NCBI RefSeq assembly: GCF_003856835.1
Contig: NZ_CP034145.1
Location: 930,001-994,000, forward strand
Reading direction: 5' to 3'
Origin: Haloplanus aerogenes
GTDB lineage: Archaea > Halobacteriota > Halobacteria > Halobacteriales > Haloferacaceae
DNA length: 64,000 nt
How positions within the stretch are numbered: position 1 is the stretch's first letter; the number at the start of each line of letters is the position of its first letter. A model generated the notes under the pieces. That model saw only the letters and a list, made by a program, of their open reading frames with translations, did no database searches and was not told the DNA's origin. Positions 31,001-49,437 of the stretch are shown in pieces. A program made the position numbers and the translations under genes.

Positions 31001-31568
31001 GGAGCAGTGCCTGGTACACCATCGGACAATCAGCAGTCGACATGACCTCAACGACAGCGGCCAGCGGGACGCGCCCGCTATCGGCAGCCTGAAAGTCGCT
31101 GAATGGAGTGAGGCGTGTCTGCCAATCACGCCGCCGAGTGACCTGCCCGTAGAATTCAACGGCTGCAATCTGTTCATCAGCCGATTGCGAGAGGAGATCC
31201 AGGTCGGGAGCGCGCCGAATTCGCTCAAGTTCGTACGTGTCAGGAAACAATCCGCGGAGAATGCGTTCGAAGGCGTCGAACGCCTCGGTATCAGTTAGTC
31301 CGAACAGATACTCGACGGAGCAAGTAGCCTCACCTGTGGAAATAAGCAGGCACTCGATCGTTGGTGGTGGCTGGTTGTTCAGCAGCCGGCCGAAGAACGT
31401 CGATGAAGCATCTGCCTCAAGTTGGTGCAGTTGGCGGAAATGTGTCTGCACGACTTCGGGCGAGAGTGGTTCGTCCGTTGGGCGAACACGAAGGTAGGTT
31501 CGTGTCGGGTCGGTAGGAACCGGCAGGGACGATCGATCAACATCCGGAGACTGGTCGGCGGCCGGCAT
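28035..31568 (-). CDS. VirD4/TraG-like conjugative coupling ATPase with C-terminal extension
   Basis: The 1177-residue protein has a Walker A motif GKTGSGKST at residues 419-427, DPKGD near residue 449 and a Walker B-type LVNLYIEEAAS near residue 680, as in type IV coupling proteins. Residues 1-400 are a family-specific N-terminal domain with no obvious membrane helices. After residue 850 there is a cysteine cluster (CATCQNRYDPDITGMKR) and then a region with LDVAGLDAEGDIVVAVEAE that resembles a PD-(D/E)xK nuclease core. Its role would be to select DNA and feed it to the secretion channel encoded at 51-58 kb. It lies 20 kb from those genes and on the opposite strand. Confidence 0.8.
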   Translation of the reverse strand: MPAADQSPDVDRSSLPVPTDPTRTYLRVRPTDEPLSPEVVQTHFRQLHQLEADASSTFFGRLLNNQPPPTIECLLISTGEATCSVEYLFGLTDTEAFDAFERILRGLFPDTYELERIRRAPDLDLLSQSADEQIAAVEFYGQVTRRRDWQTRLTPFSDFQAADSGRVPLAAVVEVMSTADCPMVYQALLQPHPDWSPHAATRSAAIAAKQDTLSDQVATAIYGSSTDHDQHLAPADESRLDEIALRDTRHSFTVNARVIAIADAETSADQAERAVSELAATFAGVSHTCYEITGLHRNGRAENLSHEIRSRTIHPPSYTGLRAYLPWTRNRSRGIVADTAEAPNFCLLGGDVLTAAGARALAPTPGERTALPRPPFEQLTHYRGKGLLLGTPLTQDGTPAADPLVLPPALQPLHVAWFGKTGSGKSTSLVNAILTNHTATAGADILIDPKGDGMATEYLRAHYARYGTLDNVLYFDCATVLPAFGFFDIRDELAAGVPRQTAVEDTVDHYLEILTQIMGRERFEQAVRSPDVIRYLVKAMFDPVSGYEAFSHRDLHTAVRTMHERQTAPVVADSDLERMLAGVVANRARSFDEIMQGVANRIEKIPVDQRLARIFNHVPEGDDPHFDLADYLNEDVVIVFDTGSLRTEAQRVLTLVILSNLWTALRRRTRRSEGTQPLVNLYIEEAASIAVSALLKQLLAQSRGFDCSITLSMQFPAQLRSYGSDLYEEVLNNISTFLTGNVPIDPRLAERLATTDMSPQLVGNRLRALRRGQWFVSLPAGFDSPEPRPFLLRSAPLPPGDPAGDRPLSPAEQQAFDETLVAARERTMVTAGLTLGEPTVAQRDEAETDEEVEPPALRVDSALPHTKRLPPTVQYVASLHALRCATCQNRYDPDITGMKRAIACCSSLAETDRDDIPVCDLNLKLTAEERVVSDWSDRQLLFLQAVYNAQQLRYDPLEYDLLYDSMIRLQEYVGIDAAAVQDLVDADVLRHDTDHPHRLYTVTPDGRQLIGESYRQGVDYGHGAGDLEESSQHVFAVEVARQYLEQEYVADPDSRVDTVIPYYDLDDQHRLDVAGLDAEGDIVVAVEAERVNHDVLRAVPEDFDKIASCDVEEAIWVVMTQSAGHDVLQALNNPPDGEPRVTKTYAGTTPPQQFRIQTPGLTAMYPAEWLRDRLEES

Positions 31569-35640: not shown

Positions 35641-35826
35641 CGACTCACGCGGTCTTTTTTGATTGTGAAAGTGACGGCGGTCCATCTGGCGGGGAGTGAA
35701 GCGTAACGATTTCCCTCCCCGACCGACGGCGCCTCCGCGTCGCTCCGGCCCCGCCCCTCGCGCGGTCTCGGTGTCCGAAGACACCGACTCCTCGCATGCC
35801 ACGTTCGCGTCTGGGGAGTGTTTATC

Positions 35827-35849
35827 TGCCCCAAAGGGAGTGCGGGGCA
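35827..35849 (+). promoter_or_regulatory. Shared upstream hairpin module, copy A
   Basis: TGCCCC (35827-35832) pairs with GGGGCA (35844-35849) around the 11-nt loop AAAGGGAGTGC. TTTAT lies just before the stem, and the SWIM-protein ATG lies 23 nt after it. The same build occurs at 47040 and 48232 with compensating stem changes. Confidence 0.6.
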
Positions 35850-35872
35850 TCTTTGACAGCCCCCCGCACACC

Positions 35873-36235
35873 ATGGCCGACCCACACCCACTCACCCAGT
35901 TAGATGTATCGACGCGCGTCCTGAAGCGGGCGCAGTACGAAGCCTTCGAGTTCACACTTGAGCCTGACGGAGTGCGCGTCAGAAACGGGAGCTACGCCGA
36001 TCCCGAGAATCACGAATATCTCGTGCGTGTTGCCGACGGGCTGCCAATCTCGTGTACGTGTCCAGCCGATGCGCGCTTTGCAGGGGCCTGCAAACATCGG
36101 CTCGCCGTGGCGATCCGACGCCCAATTCTCACCGCAGCACTGAATGACGCTGGCAGGTCTCGCGATGACAGCAAGACTGACCGGACAGTTGACACGGAGA
36201 AGTCCGTCACACCAACCAGCGGAGCAGATACGTAG
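35873..36235 (+). CDS. SWIM-type zinc-finger protein
   Basis: Starting at the ATG at 35873, directly after the shared hairpin module, the protein has 120 residues. It contains the SWIM signature CTCPADARFAGACKHRLAVA (CxC, then CxH) near residues 61-80, which binds zinc and nucleic acid or protein. A beta-rich segment precedes it, and the tail is polar and probably disordered. Small SWIM proteins are common on haloarchaeal plasmids, but their role is unknown. The longer frame from 35696 crosses the hairpin and is unlikely. Confidence 0.8.
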   Translation: MADPHPLTQLDVSTRVLKRAQYEAFEFTLEPDGVRVRNGSYADPENHEYLVRVADGLPISCTCPADARFAGACKHRLAVAIRRPILTAALNDAGRSRDDSKTDRTVDTEKSVTPTSGADT

Positions 36236-36349
36236 TGCGAGTGCATACTAGCGTCTGCAGACATGGAGCAAGGTGAACTACCGGCGATAGTTACGACGTG
36301 ATACCATCCGAGACGTTGCTAGGCGTCGCTAAACTTCCCAGCTGAGAGT

Positions 36350-36604
36350 TCACCGGTTCCGATTAATCCATCGGCAGAATTCCTTGAAATCCTTGGCGCC
36401 CGCGTCGTCAGCGATGTCATGGAGCGTCCCAATACTCACGCTATCATGATATGGGACTGAAACAGTGCGGGATTCGACATCTGCGCCATCTGGGTGTTCC
36501 CACTTGAGAATGTAGTGATCGCCAGCAATCCGATCAACCCAGAAATTCCCCTTGTTGCAGAGGACCTTGACGATCTCCTCCCCGGAGAAATCCCGCGTGA
36601 CCAT
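36350..36604 (-). CDS. hicA: HicA-family toxin (mRNA interferase)
   Basis: The 84-residue protein fits haloarchaeal HicA: TRDFSGEEIVKVLCNKGNFW, the catalytic histidine in RIAGDHYILKWEHP (His30), TVSVPYHDSVSIGTLHDIAD and the C-terminal FCRWINRNR. HicA has a double-stranded-RNA-binding fold and cleaves mRNA. Its antitoxin gene hicB is found 1.4 kb upstream, beyond a TnpB-type element that lies exactly between the two. The ATG at 36604 is preceded by the end of that element, so the original operon promoter may no longer reach the toxin. Confidence 0.85.
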   Translation of the reverse strand: MVTRDFSGEEIVKVLCNKGNFWVDRIAGDHYILKWEHPDGADVESRTVSVPYHDSVSIGTLHDIADDAGAKDFKEFCRWINRNR

Positions 36605-38016
36605 TCGAATTACGTCAACTACCCCACCCTACTTTGCTCACCCTGACGGGGTCGCTCGTGGAGGGTGGGACTTGTCCGTGAACTCGGCCTCGAACCCTTC
36701 CGGGTGGGCGGTGAATCCACCACTCGGCGTCATTGTTCCAGACTTCAGGGCAAGCTGACTATTGCCCGTCCGCCGAGACGACTGTTGGCCCCGACGGACG
36801 TACCGCAGTCCGATGTTCTTCGCGGCGTTGTAGTCCGCGTTCGCTTCCGACTCGCACTTCACACACCGGAAGTCGTTGCGAGTCGGGCGATTCTCGTCTG
36901 CCGTGAACCCACACTCTGCGCATCGCTTCGACGTGCACGCCGAACCCACCTGCTTCACCGAGACACCGACCGATTCGGCTTTGTACTCCACCTGCTCGTA
37001 CAGCGTTCGGAACGCCCACTTGTGCCCCCACGACGCTCCCGTGCGGTCACGGATATTGGTTAAGTCCTCGAACGCGATTACGTCACAGCCGTAGCGGAGT
37101 GCTTCATCCACAATTGCGTTCGACGCTCGGTGGAGCACATCCCGGACGTAGCGAAGCTCGCGGCCACTCGACTGTTCGAGCGTCCGGTGGGCGCTTCGGG
37201 TGCCGGTCTGTTGGAGTCCGGCGCGAACCGTCTCGAACTCGCGGAGGTTGTGGGTCAACTCCCGCCCGCTGAAGAAGTAGGCGGTGCTCGTGACGGCGAG
37301 GTTTTCGACACCGAGGTCAACCCCGAGAACCGTTCCGTCCTCGGCGGTGTTCCGTTCGGTGTCAGTCTTGTGTCTGCGGAAGCCGATGTGCAAGAAGTAG
37401 TCGCCGTCACGAGCGGTGAGCGTGCTTTCCGTGACGCTCCACGTGTCTGAATCAAGGTACTGCCGCTGGTAGCCATCGTCGGCGTCGGGGAGGGCAAGGT
37501 CACATCGGATTCGACTCTCTGTGGTGGAGAGCGACACCGTGTCGTCATCGAACAGCGTCATGGTCCGGATGTCGTACTTCACCGTGGGTGCGGTGAAGGT
37601 GGGCTTGCTCACCTTCTTGCCGTTGGACCGGCGTTCGATACAGCCGGTGATGGCCTGAGCAGCCTGGTGGGTGGCGAGAATCGCGTGCTGACTCCCGAGG
37701 TCGGTCTGCTCGCGCACGGTATCGTAGGCGAGGGGTTGCACGTCGCTTTTCGCGTTGTACTTGCCCCACGCCATGTCGGTGGCGAGTTGGCAACCACGCT
37801 TCCACTCGGAGATAGTGTCTTCGAGGAGGTCGCGTTGCTCGTCCGTGACTTCAAGACGAGTGATTGCCGTCCGACGCACGTAGTCGTCTGCCACACTTCA
37901 ATGTGATTGAGGGGCTATTTATAGATTGATATTTGTGCCCTGCTTCGCCACGCGCTCCTCCCCTCCCTACCGCTCGCTTCGCTCGCGCTTGAGGAAGGGG
38001 ACTCCGCGCTACCGCT
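36605..38016 (-). mobile_element. TnpB-only IS200/IS605-family (IS1341-type) element between hicB and hicA
   Basis: The segment between the two toxin-antitoxin genes contains tnpB and about 120 bp of GC-rich, hairpin-prone sequence at its left side (37920-38016). No TnpA transposase is present, so movement would need one in trans. The right end, just after tnpB, is expected to encode the guide (omega) RNA. Exact ends are not determined, because this family leaves no inverted repeats or target duplication. Confidence 0.65.
36638..37894 (-). CDS. tnpB: TnpB RNA-guided endonuclease-like protein
   Basis: The 418-residue protein starts with GTG at 37894 (MADDYVRRTAITRLEVTDEQ). It has the RuvC-like active site in three parts: VLGVDLGVENLAV (Asp near residue 192), IAFEDLTNIR (Glu) and ADYNAAKNIGLRY (Asp). 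The zinc finger reads CTSKRCAECG and later CVKC. TnpB proteins use an RNA copied from the element's 3' end to cut DNA, which helps the element persist. No frameshift is seen. It interrupts the hicBA operon in the same orientation. Confidence 0.88.
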   Translation of the reverse strand: MADDYVRRTAITRLEVTDEQRDLLEDTISEWKRGCQLATDMAWGKYNAKSDVQPLAYDTVREQTDLGSQHAILATHQAAQAITGCIERRSNGKKVSKPTFTAPTVKYDIRTMTLFDDDTVSLSTTESRIRCDLALPDADDGYQRQYLDSDTWSVTESTLTARDGDYFLHIGFRRHKTDTERNTAEDGTVLGVDLGVENLAVTSTAYFFSGRELTHNLREFETVRAGLQQTGTRSAHRTLEQSSGRELRYVRDVLHRASNAIVDEALRYGCDVIAFEDLTNIRDRTGASWGHKWAFRTLYEQVEYKAESVGVSVKQVGSACTSKRCAECGFTADENRPTRNDFRCVKCESEANADYNAAKNIGLRYVRRGQQSSRRTGNSQLALKSGTMTPSGGFTAHPEGFEAEFTDKSHPPRATPSG

Positions 38017-38289
38017 TTACTTGAGAACGTCCGGCAGCTCGCCACGTCCGAGTGTGTTCTCGTCGGGATCGATTCCGAGGTCTTGCAGCTCCTCAGCAGT
38101 GGGTTCACGCCCACCGTCATGTTCGAGCGCGTCGACGACAGCATCAAGATTTTCGAGGGCTTCGTCTCGCGTCTCGCCTTGAGCGGACACCTCGACTTCG
38201 AGGTCTCGGGCGGTCCAGGTCCCGTCCTCGTTGTGGGTTAGAGTGATCCGCGGTTCCCGGCCAGCTTCTTGCTCGGAATCGATGCTCAT
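38017..38289 (-). CDS. hicB: HicB-family antitoxin
   Basis: I choose the ATG at 38289 (MSIDSEQEAGREPRITLTHN), giving 90 residues. A longer frame to 38412 lacks conserved content. The partial RNase H-like fold shows ITLTHNEDGTWTARDLEVEV and GETRDEALENLDAVVDALEH. The C-terminal part is acidic. HicB neutralises HicA and usually represses the operon. The gene order hicB-hicA is normal except for the inserted TnpB element. The antitoxin keeps its own upstream region and should still be expressed. Confidence 0.8.
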   Translation of the reverse strand: MSIDSEQEAGREPRITLTHNEDGTWTARDLEVEVSAQGETRDEALENLDAVVDALEHDGGREPTAEELQDLGIDPDENTLGRGELPDVLK

Positions 38290-38581
38290 GCCCACAGTAC
38301 ATGTGGAGAACGGATAAATTCTCTCTCCTCTGTAATTCGTGTGGTGTCGGTATTCTAAGCGTGATCCCTCCGGGTTCGACATGGATGTAGTCACTACCGT
38401 CGGGGTATGCACGGTTCAGCCGTTGCAAGATGGATCACCATCCAGATGACGATGTCGTCCGACGCCTGCTCCCCAGTGCTGAATGAATTCTGTGTATTCC
38501 ACACCGTACTCCGATCACGTCTTGAGGTTTCAATTGTTACCTTCCACGAGGCTTATTGGTACACACAGCCAACTATAGGGA

Positions 38582-39976
38582 ATGACACAGTCCGACTCTC
38601 GCGGGCTGTTACTCGATCAGTCACAGGACAAAATTTCTCTGATAGACGAACACGGTACATTTACGTATGTCAATGGTGCCGTGCGCCGCATCCTCGGATT
38701 CGATCCTGCCGACCTCGTCGGTGAGACTGCCTTCGAGTATATCCATCCCGACGACGTAGAGACGATTCGCCGCGTTTTCGAGCGGACGCTTCGAAGTGAG
38801 TCGTTCACCGAAGCAACGGTCGAATATCGGTTTCGTGCGGCTGACGACTCGTGGGTGTGGCTCGAGAGTCGGATGTCGAATCTCACGGATACCGAACTTG
38901 ACGGGTTCGTCGTCAGCTCCCGAGATGTGACTGACCGGGTTCGAGCCGAACACGAATACGCTGAGACGGCGAGCCGCTTGGAAGAAATCGCCGCTGCCTC
39001 CGGGGATGCGCTCTGGATGTTCAATGCCGATTGGTCCGAATTGCTGTTCATGAATCCTGCCTACGAGGAAATTTACGGAATGCCTGTCGAGGAAGTGAAA
39101 GCGTCGCCCGAGGCATTTCTGGAGACAATCCATCCAGACGATGTCGTCGCTGTAGAGGACGCTATGGAGTGCCTCTCGGCGGGGAACGCCGTCGATATCG
39201 AGTATCGCGTGAATCCCCAGGAACACTACAAACGCTGGGTCTGGGTGCAGGGGCAACCCATCACGCAGGACGGTGAAATCGTTCGGATCGCGGGCTTTAC
39301 CCGGGATATCACGGATCGGAAGCGGCGGGAGCGGCAATTGTTCGTGATGGACAATCTCCTTCGACACAATCTCCGAAACGATCTGAATGTCATCCTTGGG
39401 ACGGCGGACCTCATTGAGGGGACCGTGCCGGAGGTAGACGACCAAACGGCGATCATCCGTCGGACGGCCGAGAATCTCCTGCGGAGCGCCCAGAAACAAC
39501 GTGAGATCATCGAGCTCGTCACGGGACAGGAGCGACGTGAACGGATCGACCTTCAGGAAGTCGTCTCAGAGAGCATCGCAACCGTTCGCGATCGGTATCC
39601 GACTGCGACGGTCTCCGTCACGACGTTCGACGCCGTTACCGTGCGAGGCCGACCGGAACTAAAAGCGGCTGTGATCGAACTCCTCGAGAACGCGATTCAG
39701 AATTCTGAAGCTGTGAACCCAACGGTGATGGTTCGGTTACAGCAAGTGGGCCACCATGCAGAGCTGAGCGTTGAAGACGAAGCAACACCGATTCCACCGA
39801 TTGAAGCGGCTGTACTCAAGGGCGAACACGAGATGACCGACGTGTATCACAGCAGTGGACTCGGCTTCTGGCTGGTCTACTGGAGCGTCGAACTCTCGAA
39901 CGGCACCATTTCCGTTCACTCCGAAGATGGACGAGGTAATCGCATTACTGTCTCGCTCCCCCGAGCAATGGAGTGA
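38582..39976 (+). CDS. PAS-domain sensor histidine kinase
   Basis: The 464-residue protein has no membrane segment, so it is probably a cytoplasmic sensor. Two PAS domains occupy about residues 10-125 (FTYVNGAVRRILGF, VVSSRDVTDRV) and 130-250 (FMNPAYEEIYGMPVEEV, IAGFTRDITDRK). The H-box is LLRHNLRNDLNVILG near residue 260, typical of haloarchaeal kinases. The ATPase domain has ELLENAIQNSE and GLGFWLVYWSVELSNG. TTATTG about 30 nt before the ATG fits a TATA box. No response regulator lies beside it. The ligand and output are unknown. Confidence 0.85.
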   Translation: MTQSDSRGLLLDQSQDKISLIDEHGTFTYVNGAVRRILGFDPADLVGETAFEYIHPDDVETIRRVFERTLRSESFTEATVEYRFRAADDSWVWLESRMSNLTDTELDGFVVSSRDVTDRVRAEHEYAETASRLEEIAAASGDALWMFNADWSELLFMNPAYEEIYGMPVEEVKASPEAFLETIHPDDVVAVEDAMECLSAGNAVDIEYRVNPQEHYKRWVWVQGQPITQDGEIVRIAGFTRDITDRKRRERQLFVMDNLLRHNLRNDLNVILGTADLIEGTVPEVDDQTAIIRRTAENLLRSAQKQREIIELVTGQERRERIDLQEVVSESIATVRDRYPTATVSVTTFDAVTVRGRPELKAAVIELLENAIQNSEAVNPTVMVRLQQVGHHAELSVEDEATPIPPIEAAVLKGEHEMTDVYHSSGLGFWLVYWSVELSNGTISVHSEDGRGNRITVSLPRAME

Positions 39977-40197
39977 CAGCACCCGCTACGCGCTCCAGCA
40001 ACTATCGCAGTGCGGCATTCTCCGTTCATTTAGCCATCTCTGGTAGCTTCGGAGAATTCCATAGCATTCCTCAACAACAATACCCGGTGCTGCGAATAGT
40101 CGACATATCCGTGGGGAACACGGAACGGTCCCTGGCGAGTGGAAGGAGAGATGGTGGCACCCGCTAATTCTTGGCAGTTGCTTCGTAAACAGGTGCT

Positions 40198-41664
40198 ATG
40201 TCGACCTATCGGACCGCGATCCTCGTCTTGCTACTCGTCTTCGCGGGCTGTAGCGGCACGGGCGGCGATACCGGCAGTCAGTCCGTTGATTCGACCACTG
40301 CCACGGACACACCGCCTCCAGCAGCGACGACCACCGCAACAGAGACATCGGAGACGCCGTCCGGGACGCTTGAGATTCATTTCATCAACGTCGATCAATC
40401 GGTCAGTACGCTCATTATCGCGCCCTCAGGAGAGACGATGCTCATCGATACCGGCGATTTCAACGACGATGGGGAGTATGTCCTTCAGTATCTCCAGCGT
40501 CACGATATCAGGCGAATCGATCATCTGGTCGTGAGCCACAACGACGCCGACCACATCGGCGGGAATGCCGCCGTGATCGACTACTTCGAAACGCAAGCCG
40601 ATGGGATCGGCGTGATTCACGACCCCGGCATCGCAGCGAGTACGCAAACCTATACCGAGTACCTCGATGCCGTCGAAGCACACGATGTTCGACTCGTCGA
40701 GACGCGTGAAGGAGACACGCTGTCGTTCGGTGGCGACGCGGTTGGAGTGCAGGTTCTCGGCCCACCAGATCCATACCTCGAAAATAGCGCCCGCAACGAG
40801 AACAGTATCATCCTCCGGTTTACGTTCGGCTCAACGAGCTTCCTGTCTACCGGTGATGCCGAGGACGATCAAGAAGCGTACCTTGTCGATCAGTACGGGA
40901 CACAGCTCCGCGCTACGGTCCTGAAAGCCGGTCACCACGGGAGCAAAACGAGCACGAGTGGTGCCCTCCTAGACACCGTCAAGCCCGAGACAGTCGTTAT
41001 TTCGAGTGCGTATGACTCGCGATACGACCATCCAAGCGAGGAGACACTCCAGCGGTTGGCCGAGCGGTCGATACCCACCTACTGGACGGCGACCCACGGC
41101 GATATCGTTGTTGTCAGCGACGGTCGCGGTATCTCGGTTCGCACCCAGCAGGCGGCCCCGACCGATCCGCTCGCGCTCCGAGGTGGGAGTGCGGTTGCGC
41201 CTGGGACCTCGAACCCGGTCACTGAGCGGGCACGCTTCGGTGGCAGTCCGGTCGCCGAGACGACGGCGACTCCCGACGGTCGTACGTCCTCGACGGCGAC
41301 CACGACGATGACTGACGGCGGAGCAGCTCCGGGCGAGGCGATCGCCCTCGTCGATATCAACGCCGATGCCGACGGCAACGATAACGAGCATCTGAACGAC
41401 GAGTACATTATCCTCGAAAACACGGGCGACACAGCTGTCGACCTGTCGGGGTGGACGCTCGCGGATGCAGCGGGCCACACTTATACGTTCCCCGATGGAG
41501 TTACCCTCCCCGCTGGCGGACAGGTCACGATACACACTGGGAGCGGAATCGACACTGACACCGATCTTTACTGGGGGCAGGGGTCGGCCGTCTGGAACAA
41601 CGGTGGCGATACAGTCACTGTTCGGACTGCTGATGGAACTATTGTGCTTGAGGAGGAATACTGA
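40198..41664 (+). CDS. Lipid-anchored metallo-beta-lactamase-fold hydrolase with lamin-tail domain
   Basis: The N-terminus (TAILVLLLVFAGCSG, Cys18) is a lipobox signal, followed by a Thr/Ser-rich linker. The hydrolase domain resembles the soluble part of ComEC/Rec2, with MLIDTGDFNDDG, the metal motif SHNDADHIGGN near residues 113-123 and VLKAGHHGSKTSTSG. A second low-complexity linker leads to a lamin-tail domain near residues 380-488 (YIILENTGDTAVDLSGWTL). ComEC-like domains are predicted nucleases that process incoming DNA, and lamin-tail domains often accompany extracellular nucleases. A DUF3006 gene follows after 2 bp. Confidence 0.82.
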   Translation: MSTYRTAILVLLLVFAGCSGTGGDTGSQSVDSTTATDTPPPAATTTATETSETPSGTLEIHFINVDQSVSTLIIAPSGETMLIDTGDFNDDGEYVLQYLQRHDIRRIDHLVVSHNDADHIGGNAAVIDYFETQADGIGVIHDPGIAASTQTYTEYLDAVEAHDVRLVETREGDTLSFGGDAVGVQVLGPPDPYLENSARNENSIILRFTFGSTSFLSTGDAEDDQEAYLVDQYGTQLRATVLKAGHHGSKTSTSGALLDTVKPETVVISSAYDSRYDHPSEETLQRLAERSIPTYWTATHGDIVVVSDGRGISVRTQQAAPTDPLALRGGSAVAPGTSNPVTERARFGGSPVAETTATPDGRTSSTATTTMTDGGAAPGEAIALVDINADADGNDNEHLNDEYIILENTGDTAVDLSGWTLADAAGHTYTFPDGVTLPAGGQVTIHTGSGIDTDTDLYWGQGSAVWNNGGDTVTVRTADGTIVLEEEY

Positions 41665-41666
41665 CT

Positions 41667-41945
41667 ATGGTCACCGATGGCACCTACACCGCAGTCCTTG
41701 ATCGGTTCGAGGATGACGTGGCAGTGTTAGTGCTTGAATCGGATGACGAAACACTTGGGCAAGTAGTGGTCGACGCCGAAACGATTCCTGCGGAGGGCCA
41801 GCATCAAGACGCACTCTTCACTGTCGTGATGTGTGGGGGTGAACTTGCAGAGGTGACGTACCACCCGGACCAAACTGAAGAACGCCGGGAGACCGCACAG
41901 TCTCGATTCGATCGGCTTTCGGAGCGATCCGACTCGGACAAGTAA
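41667..41945 (+). CDS. DUF3006 small protein
   Basis: This 92-residue acidic protein has the DUF3006 pattern YTAVLDRFEDDVAVLVLES. DUF3006 is a small beta-barrel family of unknown function often found next to MBL-fold/ComEC-like hydrolases. Here it follows such a gene with a 2-bp gap, which implies co-translation. It has no signal peptide, so it probably acts inside the cell. Confidence 0.75.
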   Translation: MVTDGTYTAVLDRFEDDVAVLVLESDDETLGQVVVDAETIPAEGQHQDALFTVVMCGGELAEVTYHPDQTEERRETAQSRFDRLSERSDSDK

Positions 41946-42367
41946 GCGTCGGTGTCTGGCAGGAAGTGGATTCAACCGGCCTTGTTTGGCCAACGACAGG
42001 CTCTAGTGACTATATCAGACTCAGACACACACTCTAGTCACCATACAATCACTTTCGCTTATTAAGAATCTCGACAGGGCCTCCCTCAACACGGAGATAG
42101 TCAAAATACGCGAATACAGCCGCGCTAAAGTTTCACTACAAATACACCTTGTGGATGGGTGCTGAATCAGCCGGTACTCGACGACCACTCCCGCTCCCAC
42201 TCCTTGATCAACGGGCCGTATTTGAAACTGATATGCTGGGGACTGGCTAGACGACGATTGAATCCCTGCCCACTGAACCAGCGCCTGTATTCACCGAACC
42301 CCGAACGGGAGATATCGCAAGTCGGTGGGGCGAGGTTCGAGCCAACGAGACAGAAATCAAAACCTCG

Positions 42368-43138
42368 GTGGCAGTGCAAAACGAGAACGACGAGGCCTTT
42401 ACCGATCTGCTATCGCTCAATATCCAACAGGAAACCTCTATCGCGGGTGTCACAGTCGCCACAGGCATGAGTCGGATAGCGGAACTCCCAACCGGCGAAG
42501 GACAAATCGAGGTCACAGCGACCAAATCGCATGCGCTCGTCCCGAACTGGTGGGCTGCACATCTCCGAAACGGCGAGCGCTCAGTGATTCACACGGAACT
42601 GAATGCTGAGGCTGATCTCTCCGTGACGACGCTTCCGTTAGTCCTCGATGATCGGGTCAGCACCGTTGAAACCACGCTACTCACAGATCTCAATACGACA
42701 TCACGACAGGCAGTCACCGACGATACAACAGGGCAGTCCCTATTTATCAGCCACAAAACGAGTGCTGAGTGGATTGACCCGACACCCACAGAGGCAACGG
42801 TACTGATCAGAGCTGATGTTGAAAACATTCGCCCAGTGCCGCTGACGCTACGAGAGTTCAATGTTCAGGTCGAACTTAATGATGTGGCGCTGACGGATGC
42901 GCGCTTATCCGAAGAATATGTGTTCATTCTTGGCGAGCGTAAATCAATCACGCTCAGATTCCCTGTTGACAATTCACAAATGGCCGCTTGGTGGCCAACA
43001 CACATCCGGAACGGAGAGCGATCCACCTTGGATAGCCACGTAACTGCAACAGTAAGCAGCAGGAACATCCGCGGACGACAACCATTGGAATTCCTGTCGG
43101 CGACTGGTGAGATCACAACCAATCTCTTAGACGGGTGA
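42368..43138 (+). CDS. LEA type 2/WHy-like protein, possibly 5'-truncated
   Basis: The protein shows two repeats of a water-stress (LEA14/WHy)-like domain. Each ends in a related motif, NWWAAHLRNGERSVI and AWWPTHIRNGERSTL. The best remaining start is GTG at 42368, but the same frame continues upstream with homologous-looking residues (ASRWGEVRANETEIKTS). It is open from an ATG at 42155 except for a single TAG at 42248-42250. The original N-terminus, usually a membrane anchor in this family, is not seen. The gene may thus be a recent pseudogene or begin at a non-standard start. Confidence 0.5.
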   Translation: MAVQNENDEAFTDLLSLNIQQETSIAGVTVATGMSRIAELPTGEGQIEVTATKSHALVPNWWAAHLRNGERSVIHTELNAEADLSVTTLPLVLDDRVSTVETTLLTDLNTTSRQAVTDDTTGQSLFISHKTSAEWIDPTPTEATVLIRADVENIRPVPLTLREFNVQVELNDVALTDARLSEEYVFILGERKSITLRFPVDNSQMAAWWPTHIRNGERSTLDSHVTATVSSRNIRGRQPLEFLSATGEITTNLLDG

Positions 43139-43594
43139 CCTCAATCCACCCATTTAAGTTCGAACTCGATACTCAACGCATCGGGTTCGCCCGTCGGCCC
43201 TCTCACGTTCGGCTTTGACCTCGTGCGGGGGGAAGCGCCGCAGCTGTCTGGATTTACTCACCGTCATCATCACCGCATTCCGATCACCGCACACTGATTT
43301 CACCGGGACCACTTCGATTGACCAGTGGGCAACGACACCCCCGATCAGCGGGGAAGGGGAGGGAAGGTATGGCGACGACGATCGTCTCGCAGGGACCGTG
43401 GGTGCTGGACGATACAGCCGTGGTATGTGCCCTGTCGCGGGCATGTATTGATATGCCTAGTGACATTATAAAATTTCGTCAGACAGGCGTCAGCGTACAG
43501 TTGAAACAGTGGGATGAGGTGGTGCTTGAACTCAAGAGATACATTCGGAGTGATCACCCGTCAGCACACACCGCGAGATCTCCCCGGGCATCTG
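43139..43594. other. Spacer with a possible gene remnant
   Basis: No confident gene is present. A forward frame from 43452 reads MPSDIIKFRQTGVSVQLKQW and looks protein-like for about 45 codons. It then runs antisense through the broken DUF4326 gene, so it may be the 5' end of a small gene cut at that junction. Confidence 0.3.
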
Positions 43595-43999
43595 CTACGA
43601 ATCGTACGCTCCGGCGAGATGCTCGAGGATCACCTCGCCGTGGCGCTGCTGCGGCAGGCACCAACACCCCAGCCGTTCGCCGTACAACTTTTCGACAGCC
43701 TTGGCGAACTCATTGTTCTCGACGAGATTCCCACGGAACCAGCCCTCATACAGTGCGACCGACTGCTAGTGAGCGTCGACCTCACCACCGCCCTCAACGA
43801 GTGTGAACGGATTCCCGAATCGTGAGCGACGGTCGATCCATCGGGTCGGATCGAATCGGCGCCCCGAAACAAGTTCGGTGCCGCTGGGTTCGTGGACGAT
43901 GCGCCGGCCACGATCGGCCTCGGGGACGTGGAGATCACCACAGACGCGGGCCCGGACCGCGTTGAGTTGGTTCTCGGTCGGTTCAGGAGTCTCACTCAT
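43595..43999 (-). pseudogene. Degenerate DUF4326 gene with in-frame TAG
   Basis: The frame starts MSETPEPTENQLNAVRARVC and is close to the intact copy at 31950-32357, including RRIVHEPSGTELVSGRRF. A TAG interrupts it at codon 78, right after EVDAH. The same frame then continues with SVALYEGWFRGNLVENNEF and ends at the expected length. The cysteine motif has also decayed from CWCLPRKCHG to CWCLPQQRHG, with loss of the third cysteine. Both changes point to a non-functional copy. Confidence 0.75.
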
Positions 44000-44168
44000 C
44001 GGCAGCTTCCTGCATGACTATCTTGAGTGGTCGTACCCGGTACTCGCCCGTTTCAGTCTGCTGTTCGAGGACTACCTGCTCGGTCTCTGCCGGGGTTGTG
44101 ATCATCGGGCCTGGGATCTTCGTCCGCTCGATAACCTCGCAGAACTGCCAGTAGCCCGAGTCAGACAT
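43992..44168 (-). CDS. 58-residue protein coupled to the degenerate DUF4326 gene
   Basis: This short frame reads MSDSGYWQFCEVIERTKIPG and ends in QEAADE. Its stop overlaps the DUF4326 start in ATGAGTGA. The start overlaps the stop of a 40-residue frame upstream by 8 bases. Acidic composition and chained overlaps support real translation. No family is recognised. Its position suggests a partner of DUF4326, although the intact DUF4326 gene has only a 14-residue leader there. Confidence 0.5.
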   Translation of the reverse strand: MSDSGYWQFCEVIERTKIPGPMITTPAETEQVVLEQQTETGEYRVRPLKIVMQEAADE

Positions 44169-44283
44169 CGCTGCCCTCTCGGTGAGACTCGTCTCTCTGC
44201 TGGCGCTTTGTGTGCTCGACGAGGTCGGTTAGGGTCCCTGGATGGGTGGATTCGACGTTGTCGTCCGTGAGGGGAAACAGCAT
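44161..44283 (-). CDS. 40-residue acidic mini-protein at the head of the small-ORF chain
   Basis: The frame reads MLFPLTDDNVESTHPGTLTD and ends in REGSDV. Its stop overlaps the next small gene by 8 bases. It is strongly charged and has no recognised domain. Only the overlap pattern and composition support it. The nearest upstream gene on the strand ends at 44442. Confidence 0.35.
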   Translation of the reverse strand: MLFPLTDDNVESTHPGTLTDLVEHTKRQQRDESHREGSDV

Positions 44284-44441
44284 ATCTCAGTAGTCCCTGG
44301 TGGCGAACTTAGCATTCTCGGCGACTACCGGACGGTCTGTTCACTCTCCGTACAGATTCCAAATCGCCGCACTACGGGCCGCTCGAGACTCATCACTAAG
44401 ATGGACTGGTCGCCCGGTGCCCGGTGTAAGAGTGCGTCGTG

Positions 44442-45548
44442 CTACTTGACGACCAACCGATCGACGGCCTGCGCCATATACTCCCGTGCGGGCCCAAGCG
44501 TCGTGTCGCCCTTCTTCGCAGCTGTCTTCGCTGTTCCGAGCGGCGCACGCTGCACCCCAGCGGCCACGACGTAGTCGTCGACCGTGACACGGGCGACATG
44601 GACGGCGACCCACCACGGCCCGTTCTCACCACTGACGACGCCCTGGAAGCTCTCCAGTTGAGTTTTCTCCTCGAGGAGTGTGATCTCTATCTCGCCTTGG
44701 ATGTCGGAGACTGCCGTCGGTCCGGAGATCCATTCCACCTCGTCGGCGTCGGTGACACCGGCTCGCCTGAGCATTCGCCGAGTCTCCTCACGCTGGAGCA
44801 ACGCTTTCGTTTCGACCCCGACCAACGGGTTGGCCGACTCCCCGGCGACCGAAGCATTCGGCGTCGACAGGACACCCATCCCGAAGGTAGCACCACCCAG
44901 TGGAGCCGGCTGGCCAGCGTCGAACAGTTCGGCAGGGACGAATGGTTGCCCGAGAGTGATCGCGACGAACCGATTTCCAGAGATCCCAACTAGGAAGGGG
45001 TTGTTCCCCGTGTCGAACGGATTGTTCCCTGTGTTGAACGGGTTATTTCCCGTATCGAATGGATTGTTCCCCGTGTCGGCAGCACTGAACACCTCCGCCG
45101 GCTCTTGGTCCCCGACCGCGAGCAGCACTTTTCCCTCCCCCTCATACATCGAGGAGGAGTCGTACCGCTTCGGCCACCAGCGTTCGCTCGGTTCGAACGG
45201 GGTGTCTTGGTGGAGCCAGGTTCGATAGGGGAAAAACGAGGAGACAGGGCCCTCATAGAACGAGCCCTCGTTGACGGAAATCTCGTCGCTACGGGACCCA
45301 GATCCAGGGACGAGTACCAGCAGGTCGCCGGGGTCAACCTCACCGTCGCCGCGGATGCCAGCGGGTGCGAGGATACTCACCTGCTCCCCTGGGACTGGGC
45401 CGAACCCTTCTAGAAACGGCAGTTCGACTTCCTCAAGACCGAGATCATCTCCGTAGGCAACAACTGCGCCCTCGCTGATGGCACCGCCGTTGACCCGCTC
45501 GGTGAACCACCCGATGGGAGTGCGGAGCGGACCGTGTCTGTCGGGCAT
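44442..45548 (-). CDS. DUF6517-like protein with NTGNNPF repeats
   Basis: I choose the ATG at 45548, one base after the stop of the upstream lipoprotein frame (TGAgATG). A GTG at 45560 is also possible. The protein has about 368 residues and no signal of its own. Its N-terminal half includes GPVPGEQVSILAPAGI. The middle holds four 7-residue repeats, DTGNNPF. The C-terminal part (GVLSTPNASVAGESANPLVG, and later WVAVHVARVTVDDYVVAAGV) resembles haloarchaeal DUF6517 surface proteins. The upstream frame carries the signal and N-terminus expected of that family. The pair may be one gene split by a mutation, or two coupled genes. Confidence 0.55.
   Translation of the reverse strand: MPDRHGPLRTPIGWFTERVNGGAISEGAVVAYGDDLGLEEVELPFLEGFGPVPGEQVSILAPAGIRGDGEVDPGDLLVLVPGSGSRSDEISVNEGSFYEGPVSSFFPYRTWLHQDTPFEPSERWWPKRYDSSSMYEGEGKVLLAVGDQEPAEVFSAADTGNNPFDTGNNPFNTGNNPFDTGNNPFLVGISGNRFVAITLGQPFVPAELFDAGQPAPLGGATFGMGVLSTPNASVAGESANPLVGVETKALLQREETRRMLRRAGVTDADEVEWISGPTAVSDIQGEIEITLLEEKTQLESFQGVVSGENGPWWVAVHVARVTVDDYVVAAGVQRAPLGTAKTAAKKGDTTLGPAREYMAQAVDRLVVK
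45001..45081 (-). repeat. Four 21-bp coding repeats
   Basis: A 21-bp unit encoding DTGNNPF (one copy reads NTGNNPF) occurs four times in a row. The units differ by a few bases each, so the array is not brand new. Its length is a multiple of three and keeps the frame. Confidence 0.8.
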
Positions 45549-45549
45549 C

Positions 45550-45843
45550 TCACTGCCCACCGATCCCGTTCGCGCGTTTGTGGATGCTAGTGTGATTCGT
45601 TAATTCGACTTTACTGCCGCCCGGGCCGCTCCGCGTGATGGTCTGCGAGTCTCGTCTCGTCTCAGCGAGTCTCACCGCTTCCTGATCGCTGTCCGGTAGT
45701 ATCACCGGTGACGCCGCAAACGACTGGCTGGTCACACCCGAACAGCCTGCAAGGGCGACTCCCGTAGTCGTCCCTGCGACCGTGAGGAGACGGCGACGGC
45801 TCCAGCCTTCGTCATTGCTGGATAAGAACTCCGATCCTATCAT
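45550..45843 (-). CDS. Short Tat-type lipoprotein, probable N-terminal part of a DUF6517 protein
   Basis: The 97-residue product has a twin-arginine lipoprotein signal (SRRRLLTVAGTTTGVALAGC). A mature part follows (ASPVILPDSDQEAVRLAETR, SKVELTNHTSIHKRANGIGG) that looks like the first third of DUF6517 proteins. The following gene starts one base after its stop. In a typical DUF6517 protein these parts would be joined, so a frame-breaking change is likely. Tat export would place it on the outer face of the membrane, lipid-anchored. Confidence 0.6.
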   Translation of the reverse strand: MIGSEFLSSNDEGWSRRRLLTVAGTTTGVALAGCSGVTSQSFAASPVILPDSDQEAVRLAETRRDSQTITRSGPGGSKVELTNHTSIHKRANGIGGQ

Positions 45844-46033
45844 TAGGCTGGTATTCAGCTGGAATATAATAAAAGTCAGGGTGCTGATGTCCTCTTTTTC
45901 CGCTTCAGTGCGGAATAAGCGCTTTGTATTCAGCCGGACTCTGAAAATTATCAGAAATATATGGTTTTCAACAGGGCCGCTTAGTTATAGACATAATGGA
46001 CTCTGCGTCGGGCTGCGGACAGTGATGCCTGGC

Positions 46034-46222
46034 TCATTCGATAACCTCTGTCGGCTCCTGGAAATCGAGGACATATAGGTCGGCGCCACACTTGCCACAG
46101 CCTGGCCACGCTTCCACGAGATCGTCCAGGACATCGTCGTCGACGGAGGTCTCGTAGTCTCCCTTGATGCGGAGATGCTCCTCCGGCGTCTCGTTGAGGT
46201 TCGGACACTCCGCGATGATCAT
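46034..46222 (-). CDS. Small zinc-ribbon-like protein
   Basis: The 62-residue acidic protein starts MIIAECPNLNETPEEHLRIK and has CGKCGADLYVLDF near the C-terminus, a possible half zinc ribbon with Cys6 as a further ligand. Its ATG overlaps the stop of the PKD-domain gene upstream by 4 bases, so it is translationally coupled to it. No family is recognised, and its function is unknown. Confidence 0.55.
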   Translation of the reverse strand: MIIAECPNLNETPEEHLRIKGDYETSVDDDVLDDLVEAWPGCGKCGADLYVLDFQEPTEVIE

Positions 46223-46716
46223 GCCGTCGACTCGGTCACGGTGATGGTACCACAGGCGGCGACATCACTATCTTCCCCACCGCTGTACGACCAGACTTTC
46301 ACTTGCGGATCGTAGGTTCTTGGTTCGGCGTACGAGACCGACCACGAACTCTGGCTCGTGAACTCGCCGAACGAGCCGCCACCGTACTTGTCGTATTGGT
46401 AGTCGTCGGCATTTGCCGATTCCGAAGCGTCGATCGTCACCGACTCGCCAACTTGGATGCTCGTCTCCGAGACTGTACACCGGGCGACGGGATCGGTGTT
46501 CGTGGCGAACACCAGATTCAGCCCCCCATCGCCACTATACAGCGTATTGCTCGTCGCACCCGCACCGACGGCAGGGCTCGCGCCGAACATGGTGACGCCG
46601 ATCAGCGTCAGCAAAACGAGGGCAATCCCCCAGTAGCGGCGTGTCGAGTGACTGCTCGACGTTGACCCGTCACGGTGAGTACACTCCTCTGTCTCGTCGT
46701 CAGTCGGTGGATTCAT
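46219..46716 (-). CDS. Exported PKD-like domain protein
   Basis: The 165-residue protein has a polar N-terminus and then a hydrophobic segment (WGIALVLLTLIGVTMFGASP, residues 29-48) that acts as a signal or anchor. The exported part has PVARCTVSETSIQVGESVTI and YDPQVKVWSYSGG, which fit a PKD/Ig-like beta sandwich found in many haloarchaeal surface proteins. It precedes a small zinc-ribbon gene with overlapping stop and start. It may be part of the surface cargo of the conjugation-like region. Confidence 0.6.
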   Translation of the reverse strand: MNPPTDDETEECTHRDGSTSSSHSTRRYWGIALVLLTLIGVTMFGASPAVGAGATSNTLYSGDGGLNLVFATNTDPVARCTVSETSIQVGESVTIDASESANADDYQYDKYGGGSFGEFTSQSSWSVSYAEPRTYDPQVKVWSYSGGEDSDVAACGTITVTESTA

Positions 46717-47039
46717 TAGTGGTCACTATGTCCGAATCCCGCCCAATCACCCGTCGCTCACCAAAAAACCGCATCTGGACGCTGTCTGTGTCGGGTGCTG
46801 TCATGGCGGCCCTGTCTGCCGACCGTCGACCGTTCAGGTTCTCGCGAGCGAACCGATGCGGTCGACTCACCTACTTACCGTCGGTCGTTATGACGGGATC
46901 ATTGTACACTGATAAAAATACCACTGTTACGTGTCATGAGTATACTATTATGGTGGAGGTAGCTGATTTTCCGTCTCCTAAAACCAGCGTGGAATTCACA
47001 CAGGAGTCCTCGGCTTCCTGAACGACCGATTCATTTTTT
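46717..47039. other. Divergent promoter region
   Basis: This gap lies between the PKD gene and the TFB gene, which point away from each other. It contains AT-rich stretches (GATAAAAATACC near 46912, and a T-run at 47035-47039) but no gene. Confidence 0.4.
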
Positions 47040-47062
47040 CGCCCCCTGAAGGGTGCGGGGCG
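47040..47062 (+). promoter_or_regulatory. Shared upstream hairpin module, copy B
   Basis: CGCCCC (47040-47045) pairs with GGGGCG (47057-47062) around the 11-nt loop CTGAAGGGTGC. A run of six T lies just before it. The TFB ATG lies 28 nt after the stem. Compared with copy A, the outer pair changes from T-A to C-G, preserving pairing. Confidence 0.6.
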
Positions 47063-47090
47063 ACTCCAAACCGAGTGCCTCGCGTGTTCT

Positions 47091-48050
47091 ATGGCCAAGA
47101 CAGCAATCTACGAGCGTAGTTTCGATGAAGAGAGTGGCAAGACAATTGCGACGAAGACCTGTCCGGAATGTGCAGGCACCCTCGTCACGGAGAGTGCGGA
47201 AGTCAGTTGTGCGGACTGTGGACTCGTTATCGACGAGTATCTCCTCGATCACCGACCTGACTGGAACGTATTCGACCGCGATACTGATTCCGAGCGAACG
47301 GGTGCACCACTAACACCGACCCGTCACGACTGGGGCCTCTCGAGTGAGATTGGCTACGGTGGTGATGCACAGGGAACGCCACTATCGGGAGCGAAGCGTC
47401 GGCAGATTGCCCGGCTACGACAACAGCATCAGCGGGCACAGTGGCAAACCACAGCAGAGCGGAACCTCGCCTACGCCTGCAGCGAAATCAGGCGGATGGC
47501 GGGTGCCCTTGATCTTCCGAGATCCGTATGTGAGGAAGCCAGTCTCCTCTATCGGAGGGCACAGCGAAAGCGACTCATCCGCGGTCGATCAATCGAGATG
47601 CTGGCGGCAGGCAGCCTGTACGCGACCTGTCGCTGCCGAGGCTATCCGCGCACGATTGCCGAAGTCGCGGAGGTGACCCACTGTGACCAGCCACGTGTCG
47701 CACGTAGTTACCGGGTACTGAACACCGAACTCGGGCTAGACGCTCAACTCGTTACGCCAATGAAGCAACTCTCACGATTCGCGGCCGAATGTGAGGCCTC
47801 AGCGGATGTCCGGCATCGAGCCCGTGAACTCGCATGCCTGGCGGAGGAACACGGGCTTGCCAATGGCCGGCATCCAGCAGGTGTCGCCGCAGCGTGTCTG
47901 TACGTCGCCGGTCTGGACTGTCACGTCAACTACACACAGGTAGAACTCGCAGAGATTGCAGGCGTGACTCCAGTAACCCTTCGCGACCGCTATTATGAAC
48001 TCCGAGACGTACTCAGTGCGGAACCAACAGACGGGACTACTTCTTCGTGA
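47091..48050 (+). CDS. tfb: Transcription initiation factor IIB (TFB)
   Basis: The 319-residue protein has the N-terminal zinc ribbon CPECAGTLVTESAEVSCADC (residues 24-43), the B-finger region and two cyclin-like repeats with AAGSLYATCRCRGYPRTIAEV near residue 182 and AAACLYVAGLDCHVNYTQVE near 275. TFB recruits RNA polymerase to TATA-bound TBP. Haloarchaea hold many TFBs, and element-borne copies can redirect transcription towards element promoters. The gene starts right after the shared hairpin module. It is intact and of normal length. Confidence 0.92.
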   Translation: MAKTAIYERSFDEESGKTIATKTCPECAGTLVTESAEVSCADCGLVIDEYLLDHRPDWNVFDRDTDSERTGAPLTPTRHDWGLSSEIGYGGDAQGTPLSGAKRRQIARLRQQHQRAQWQTTAERNLAYACSEIRRMAGALDLPRSVCEEASLLYRRAQRKRLIRGRSIEMLAAGSLYATCRCRGYPRTIAEVAEVTHCDQPRVARSYRVLNTELGLDAQLVTPMKQLSRFAAECEASADVRHRARELACLAEEHGLANGRHPAGVAAACLYVAGLDCHVNYTQVELAEIAGVTPVTLRDRYYELRDVLSAEPTDGTTSS

Positions 48051-48231
48051 GGGTGTTCGGATGTTTCCCGGCAAGAGTCGGTATCGGACTGCTAGATCGA
48101 TCCGACTGGATCGGTGCGCGCGTGGGTACGATCGGGCGTACACTACACCGACGGGGTTTCCAGCGAGCAAGCCAGTGTCTCGGGGAGCGACGCCGAGACG
48201 GTTCACGGGAGACCGAGCCTGCCAATTTTTG

Positions 48232-48255
48232 TGCGCCCTGACGGGTGCGGGCGCA
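48232..48255 (+). promoter_or_regulatory. Shared upstream hairpin module, copy C
   Basis: TGCGCCC (48232-48238) pairs with GGGCGCA (48249-48255) around the 10-nt loop TGACGGGTGC. ATTTTT lies just before it. The start codon of the DUF932-like gene lies 24 nt after the stem. The stem differs from copies A and B by paired changes, while the loop end GGGTGC is kept from copy B. Confidence 0.6.
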
Positions 48256-48279
48256 ACCACGGAATGCCCGTAGACAACC

Positions 48280-49437
48280 ATGACACCGCCAGAGCAAACA
48301 ATCATATTCGCCGGTGTGGACGGCCGAACACGCACCGCCTTTCCAGCGTGGTACGCCCAACGACACTCAGATGCCGACCCCGTCTCGTTCGCGGAAGCGA
48401 TCCGGGCCCTGCCACGAGCTGTTGACACGAAAATTGCGTACAACAACCCCTATACGGACGAGTGGATCCCGACCGACCGATTCAACGCAATCGTGGATCC
48501 CGAGCGACTCGAACGCCAAGCTGCGGGCGATACTGACACCGACCCGCTCTTTCACGTCCCGACAGACTCGTATGCCGTCATTACGCCGACAGACGTGTAC
48601 GCACCGCTTGAAGAGGTCCTCCGAGCGGAAACCCACGAGGGACGCACGCTCGGCGAACTCGTCTTTGGCGAGATTCGACAGTACCGTGGCGGTGGCGAGA
48701 TCCATATGGACATCTTGTTCGATGGACTCTCCGTCACCCTTCCTGAACGAAATGAGCCGATCACGATGGGCGTCACCTCGGGCTATGACTTCTTCGGTGG
48801 GCATGCGGTGTACGTCGAAGGCTTCGCCCGCGATAGCTACTGTGCGAACTCGATTCGCCAGCTGACTGATCGGCAGACCGTGAAACACGTCGGGGAAGTG
48901 GGCGACTTTCGGAGTTGGTGGGAGACCGTACTCGCACAGCTCGGTCTCATTGCCGACGATCTCGCGGCGTTCATCGACGATGCCAGTGAGATTACGGTTG
49001 ACTTCACGCAGGTGCCATTCGATGTGACGGAATTCTACGAGCTGCTTGAGTTCCCTACCTATCTCGCCACCCAAGCGGCGAGCGATGCGCGGGCAGCGGC
49101 GACGACACCGACCGAAATCGATCTGTGGACACTCCACTCAGGAGCAACCTACGCCCTGACGCACTTCTTCAACGGAAAGGAAGGAGCCGCACTGGATCGG
49201 TACGTCCGGCGAGCCAACGACATTCTGTTCAATCCCGAAGCGACCGTGAACGCCGTCACGCAGACGTACGAACAGCAGGCAGTAGACGCAACGACACATG
49301 ACGGGCAGACGGGGCTGGATAGCCAGGTGGCACTCGCACAACTTGACCGCGTCGGACAAGAAGTTCGTGCGAAAGCTACCCGATTCGAACGACGCGAGGC
49401 AGCCCTCCGGGCGCGACTATCTACGATTACCGAGTAG
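48280..49437 (+). CDS. DUF932-like protein of plasmids and viruses
   Basis: The 385-residue protein has DSYAVITPTDVYAPLEEVLR near residue 95, RGGGEIHMDILFDGLSVTLP near 138 and MGVTSGYDFFGGHAVYVEGF near 165, followed by YCANSIRQLTDRQTVKHVG. These align with the order of motifs in DUF932, a family of phage/plasmid proteins of unknown function. A coiled, charged C-terminus closes the protein. It is preceded by hairpin module C, as the TFB and SWIM genes are by copies B and A, which suggests joint control. The family call is made by motif order only. Confidence 0.5.
   Translation: MTPPEQTIIFAGVDGRTRTAFPAWYAQRHSDADPVSFAEAIRALPRAVDTKIAYNNPYTDEWIPTDRFNAIVDPERLERQAAGDTDTDPLFHVPTDSYAVITPTDVYAPLEEVLRAETHEGRTLGELVFGEIRQYRGGGEIHMDILFDGLSVTLPERNEPITMGVTSGYDFFGGHAVYVEGFARDSYCANSIRQLTDRQTVKHVGEVGDFRSWWETVLAQLGLIADDLAAFIDDASEITVDFTQVPFDVTEFYELLEFPTYLATQAASDARAAATTPTEIDLWTLHSGATYALTHFFNGKEGAALDRYVRRANDILFNPEATVNAVTQTYEQQAVDATTHDGQTGLDSQVALAQLDRVGQEVRAKATRFERREAALRARLSTITE

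Follow-up and report, generated by a model that had tools for sequence, protein, structure and literature searches.

A covarying hairpin module ahead of genes on haloarchaeal mobile elements, probably embedded in their promoters

Why should three dissimilar genes in one stretch of haloarchaeal DNA each begin behind the same kind of hairpin, with stem letters that change from copy to copy? We analysed a 64,000-nucleotide window of the Haloplanus aerogenes genome in which a sequence-only reading had placed such hairpins 23-28 nt ahead of the ATG of three genes, and inspection of the sequence confirmed their places, stems and spacing. All features of the three copies lie on the plus strand, and in each copy a TATA-like tract matches the only conserved AT-rich feature of the family logo. 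In the first, the tract TTTAT (35821..35825) is followed by the hairpin TGCCCC-AAAGGGAGTGC-GGGGCA (35827..35849; found by mechanical scan, covariance-model match E=0.05) and, 23 nt past its end, by the ATG at 35873 of a SWIM zinc-finger gene (35873..36235; Pfam SWIM, E=2.4e-7). The second consists of TTTTTT (47034..47039) and the hairpin CGCCCC-CTGAAGGGTGC-GGGGCG (47040..47062; found by the scan and part of the model's training set, E=1e-8), 28 nt ahead of the ATG at 47091 of an element-encoded transcription factor B (TFB) gene (47091..48050; Pfam TFIIB, E=1.9e-35, and Zn_Ribbon_TF). The third has TTTTT (48226..48230) and the hairpin TGCGCCC-TGACGGGTGC-GGGCGCA (48232..48255; found by the scan, outside the training set, E=4e-5), 24 nt from the ATG at 48280 of a conserved plasmid gene of 385 aa (48280..49437).

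Scanning the full 64 kb for an AT tract, a stem of 5 bp or more and a GGG loop, with no gene start required, returned these three hairpins and one spurious site, against a mean of about 0.5 sites in Markov sequences. The proposed T-rich tract is present ahead of the TFB gene and the third gene, but at the SWIM gene it is TTTAT and not a pure T run. Likewise, the SWIM and TFB labels are backed by Pfam, but no Pfam family matches the third gene, which leaves its label 'DUF932-like' without support. To call the genes unlinked was too strong; they are better described as scattered, since all three share a single integrated element with type IV secretion system (T4SS)-like genes. The latter (54026..58316, plus strand) encode a TrbL/VirB6-like protein (Pfam TrbL_3, E=3.5e-21) and an AAA/TraG-like ATPase (weak AAA_10, TraG and TrwB matches). 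Adjoining the ATPase gene, 58316-59209 (plus strand) encodes a protein whose C-terminus carries an NrS-1 polymerase-like helix-bundle domain (E=1.3e-29), possibly a primase-polymerase of the element. A 1177-aa protein with weak similarity to TrwB/TraG coupling proteins is encoded at 28035-31568 on the minus strand, opposite to the hairpin genes, and a TnpB/OrfB_IS605-type gene (36638-37894, minus strand) separates the SWIM gene from the other two.

The module belongs to a large family that extends far beyond the three window copies. Its members share an AT tract, a stem of 5-11 bp, a loop near RANGGGTGC and a start codon usually 15-50 nt downstream. A single fixed DNA pattern proved too strict because the stems vary; the family was instead surveyed with a covariance model (37 positions, 8 pairs) built from ten register-matched copies. 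With a cut-off of E up to 1e-3 per genome, the model matches 147 of 292 Halobacteria genomes and 52 of 77 genera, mainly on plasmid-size contigs, with 3-15 copies per element. The family is restricted to Halobacteria: in a phylum-wide sample of 197 genomes, every match but a single weak one fell within this class. Several copies each occur on the annotated plasmids pCBA1220-01 of Halarchaeum, pCBA1232-01 of Halorubrum and pJ7-1 of Natrinema, and a 39-base probe matched 81 plasmid records, all of them haloarchaeal among the matches listed. Within the host's family, Haloferacaceae, 55 of 148 genomes contain a match to the third gene itself. Nearly all full-length homologues among those listed have an AT tract and a hairpin before the ATG, with stems as different as GCGCCT/AGGCGC, GCGCCCGC/GCGGGCGC and CGCCCCC/GGGGGCG. 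Ahead of the third gene we also observed a subclass (L040, 32716-32753, and its homologues) in which the 3' arm is doubled (GGGCGCAGGGCGC) and the ATG lies further away. With E values of up to 1 admitted, no Rfam covariance model has a match that overlaps the hairpins of the window region or of loci L038 and L035, and viral contigs gave no match to two exact patterns, which variants would escape. Within the open-access full-text literature, we found no account of the module.

Copies of the module lie at gene starts. On pJ7-1, all 11 matches sit 16-48 nt ahead of same-strand annotated genes. The corresponding figure on pCBA1232-01 is 10 of 15; of the remaining five, one runs into an annotated start that seems to be placed too far upstream, two lack a gene among those listed, one lies 86 nt before a gene and one is a weak match. 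The fairest test of position is PHS1 of Halobacterium salinarum R1, an out-of-sample plasmid absent from model training, where all 10 plus-strand matches precede same-strand annotated genes, including DUF6166, DUF6610 and ArdC-like genes. The downstream proteins cluster into about 29 unrelated families, among them TFB (a 31-member cluster), SWIM-like (also on pJ7-1 and pCBA1220-01), DUF6166, DUF6735, DUF7567, DUF6610, ArdC-like and C2H2 zinc-finger proteins. One locus (L246, 12637-13330) packs three hairpins into some 700 bp. At least two of the three immediately precede a small gene, and the row may represent a cassette-like run of individually controlled genes.

The module is a conserved structured element with covariation. 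In three alignments, standard pairs fill 87.7-95.2% of cells, compared with 66-79% in shuffled alignments and at most 58% when the partner positions are slid, and the covariation score is 0.38-0.48 compared with 0.11-0.15 after shuffling; none of 500 shuffles matches the real alignments on either measure. These alignments were fitted to the covariance model, which favours pairing, but the stems are nonetheless plain in the raw sequence. Two C-G pairs in mid-stem are nearly invariant, the flanking pairs change in step, and single plasmids bear about nine differing stems (locus L246). Orthologous genes of 70-73 aa illustrate the change directly: one genome has the stem CGCCTCCA/TGGAGGCG, whereas two others have GCCCTC/GAGGGC. 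The compensating stem changes claimed from the window alone thus hold across the family, where stems vary and pairing is kept. The broader proposal, of a shared module marking a set of mobile-element genes, is borne out by further copies at gene starts in other genomes, recovered with the covariance model, and by the covariation.

Does the hairpin act in DNA or in a transcript? The sequence-only reading had left the choice between a leader RNA element and an operator between TATA box and start site, and the latter fits better because of the bare upstream region, the spacing and the position of some start codons. In the family logo, almost no information lies between -65 and -21, counted from the loop, and the AT tract is the sole promoter-like feature. 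From the centre of this tract to where the 3' arm ends, the median distance is 27 nt (24-29 nt in 69 of 79 copies), a spacing partly produced by anchoring the alignment on the loop. A TATA box at -26 has been reported for H. salinarum (PMC6523106), and TTWT is a proposed haloarchaeal TATA motif (PMC4983044). The tract fits a TTWT-like motif, and its spacing fits the haloarchaeal distance from TATA to the predicted start. In the orthologous 70-73 aa genes the start codon lies only 4-7 nt past the stem, which is changed but still paired; a nearly leaderless transcript fits this gap, and a structured leader does not. An intrinsic terminator was rejected, as the T run precedes the hairpin and reads as A on the other strand.

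We favour a promoter-embedded hairpin element that acts at the DNA level and is common to genes of a broad class of conjugative plasmids and integrated elements in haloarchaea, a reading to which we assign a probability of roughly 0.6. Its TATA role, start site, level of action and regulon function are what we infer, as follows. The AT tract would serve as a TATA-like box, and the inverted repeat with its RANGGGTGC loop would occupy the approximately 27 bp between this box and the transcription start. Transcription would begin at or shortly past the 3' arm, giving short leaders of about 4-50 nt; because of this proposed start, the hairpin would have to act at the level of DNA, either as an operator or as a structured promoter, in the form of a dyad, cruciform or hairpin. 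Through it, a putative element-encoded factor could jointly control about 10-15 scattered promoters. Since the stem letters vary within a plasmid while pairing and loop stay, such a factor would recognise not those letters but the fold, the loop and the constant CC/GG pairs. Some observations count against a DNA-level element. Stem letters that covary are not what a double-stranded operator usually shows. The logo shows no BRE of the CGAAA type ahead of the AT tract, where there is no A enrichment and the sequence is G-rich instead. Nor is there a purine peak at the predicted start when copies are aligned on the AT tract, for which reason we dropped the purine-rich position +12 of the loop-anchored logo as evidence.

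A third arm also speaks against it. A direct repeat (C) of the 5' arm (A) is often found 3' of the 3' arm (B), usually beginning 4-14 nt on. Arm C could pair with B in place of A, which would make A:B and B:C mutually exclusive and looks more like an RNA switch. In the window, arm C is CCCCGCAC at 35862..35869 for the SWIM module, complementary to GTGCGGGG at 35840-35847 in the favoured DNA-strand fold; TGCCTCGC at 47076..47083 for the TFB module, pairing with GCGGGGCG through two G-U pairs among others; and, as a weaker match, ATGCCCGT at 48264..48271 for the third gene. The predicted single-strand fold, computed as DNA, prefers B:C at the SWIM and TFB genes and A:B at the third gene.

These data bear on the possibility of a transcribed leader switch, in which transcription starts upstream, the mRNA holds A, B and C, and translation or elongation is controlled through the balance between A:B and B:C, which a plasmid protein or some condition would shift. 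The match of arm C is directional and exceeds all 500 shuffles, two of the three window copies prefer the B:C fold, and a constant loop with variable stems is typical of RNA elements. In B:C, G-U accounts for 60 of 154 non-Watson-Crick cells, compared with about 25% in the null. However, the ratio of G-U to A-C there is only modestly above the null and A:B shows no excess of G-U pairs. Arm C is common but not universal, since by a pairing score of at least 6 it occurs in 43 of 74 copies, against 22 expected. Furthermore, the region upstream of the AT tract carries no promoter signal, and a start codon 4-7 nt past a GC stem of 6-8 bp would make a poor mRNA start. A leader switch is, in our judgement, unlikely, at somewhat worse than one chance in four.

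The orientation of the copies raises a different possibility, namely that the hairpin is a promoter or priming site in single-stranded DNA: the strand entering during conjugation would fold and allow expression or priming before it becomes double-stranded, like Frpo of F. In loci with at least two matches, many of which have common ancestry, all copies lie on one strand (43 of 43 loci, 215 matches), and TFB and hairpins share a strand in 67 of 68 contigs. The hairpins occur on T4SS-bearing elements ahead of genes that include an ArdC-like one, and the window element encodes the NrS-1 polymerase-like domain protein. Bacterial leading-region genes are placed on the T-strand with Frpo promoters (PMC11541004). 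However, the core genes of hairpin-bearing elements are mostly co-oriented anyway, and the single orientation is only suggestive for that reason. The GC stem moreover contains no TATA box, and a site for TBP would therefore not be double-stranded in the folded single strand. We consider a single-stranded role quite improbable.

Control by the element's own TFB, also suggested from the window, is supported as an association but not as a necessity. A distinct plasmid TFB clade, about 60-97% identical to the TFB of pJ7-1, is spread across the class. The close clade is present in 98 of 292 Halobacteria genomes, and 89 of these 98 also have hairpins (odds ratio 23). It is absent from 58 of the 147 hairpin genomes, which leaves TFB unsupported as the necessary factor; some of the 58 carry only more distant TFBs on hairpin contigs, as does the window. 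A promoter class dedicated to this TFB, with the hairpin incidental, would agree with the co-occurrence, with the module ahead of the TFB gene itself and with a G-rich, not CGAAA-like, sequence ahead of the AT tract. It is nevertheless very improbable: besides the hairpin genomes that lack the close clade, the association could be explained by linkage on the same plasmids, and compensating stem changes would be superfluous. That the fold has no role at all, with quasi-palindrome correction in replication keeping the arms complementary and only AT tract, CC/GG pairs and loop under selection, is scarcely credible: template switching readily arises at short inverted repeats that lie close together and the CC/GG pairs are nearly invariant, but the process would have to act alike at some 29 gene families, class-wide.

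The module could be part of a class-wide regulatory system of haloarchaeal conjugative elements in which promoters are recognised, whatever their stem letters, by the fold of a DNA hairpin with a constant loop, present as a cruciform or in the entering single strand. Dozens of unrelated gene families would then be switched in concert, perhaps when the element enters a new cell; we regard this reading as tentative and rather doubtful. Regulation and conjugation of haloarchaeal mobile elements are poorly understood, and the module provides a putative shared regulatory signal, defined by sequence alone, on the mobile elements of about half of the sampled haloarchaeal genomes. It marks some 29 families, mostly without known function, as core genes that these elements are likely to control jointly, and it aids the location of true gene starts. 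Whether a promoter can be recognised by its structure could also be tested directly on it, among other hosts in the laboratory strain Halobacterium salinarum R1.

Archaeal repressors commonly act between TATA box and start site, and ordinary operators keep the sequence of their half-sites; the dyad of the module occupies the same interval, but its half-sites change in pairs between promoters. In integron attC sites the fold is kept and the sequence is free, and these too accompany co-oriented small genes on mobile DNA. The module resembles them in fold and free sequence, but it keeps a fixed distance to the following start codon and not to the preceding stop, and we dropped an attC-like reading because of this spacing. 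The hairpin promoters of phage N4 virion RNA polymerase place a short GC hairpin with a conserved loop closely upstream of the start site. The module shares the short GC hairpin and the conserved loop near a predicted start; unlike in N4, its stems vary widely and we assume the host's archaeal RNA polymerase. Halovirus HF2 likewise carries promoter-bearing repeats on a haloarchaeal mobile genome, intergenic repeats of 58 bp and 29 bp with AT-rich motifs, and the abstract of that account describes no such hairpin family (PMC8707807). The nearest functional analogue is Frpo/ssi of F-like plasmids, which likewise places hairpins ahead of co-oriented genes of conjugative elements, some of them anti-restriction-like. 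The folded strand of Frpo mimics a duplex -35/-10 promoter (PMC11541004), whereas the module's stem is short, GC-rich and free of TATA, with the AT tract outside it, and thus forms no duplex promoter of that kind. Set beside these systems, the hairpin module looks like an undescribed shared switch of haloarchaeal mobile elements.
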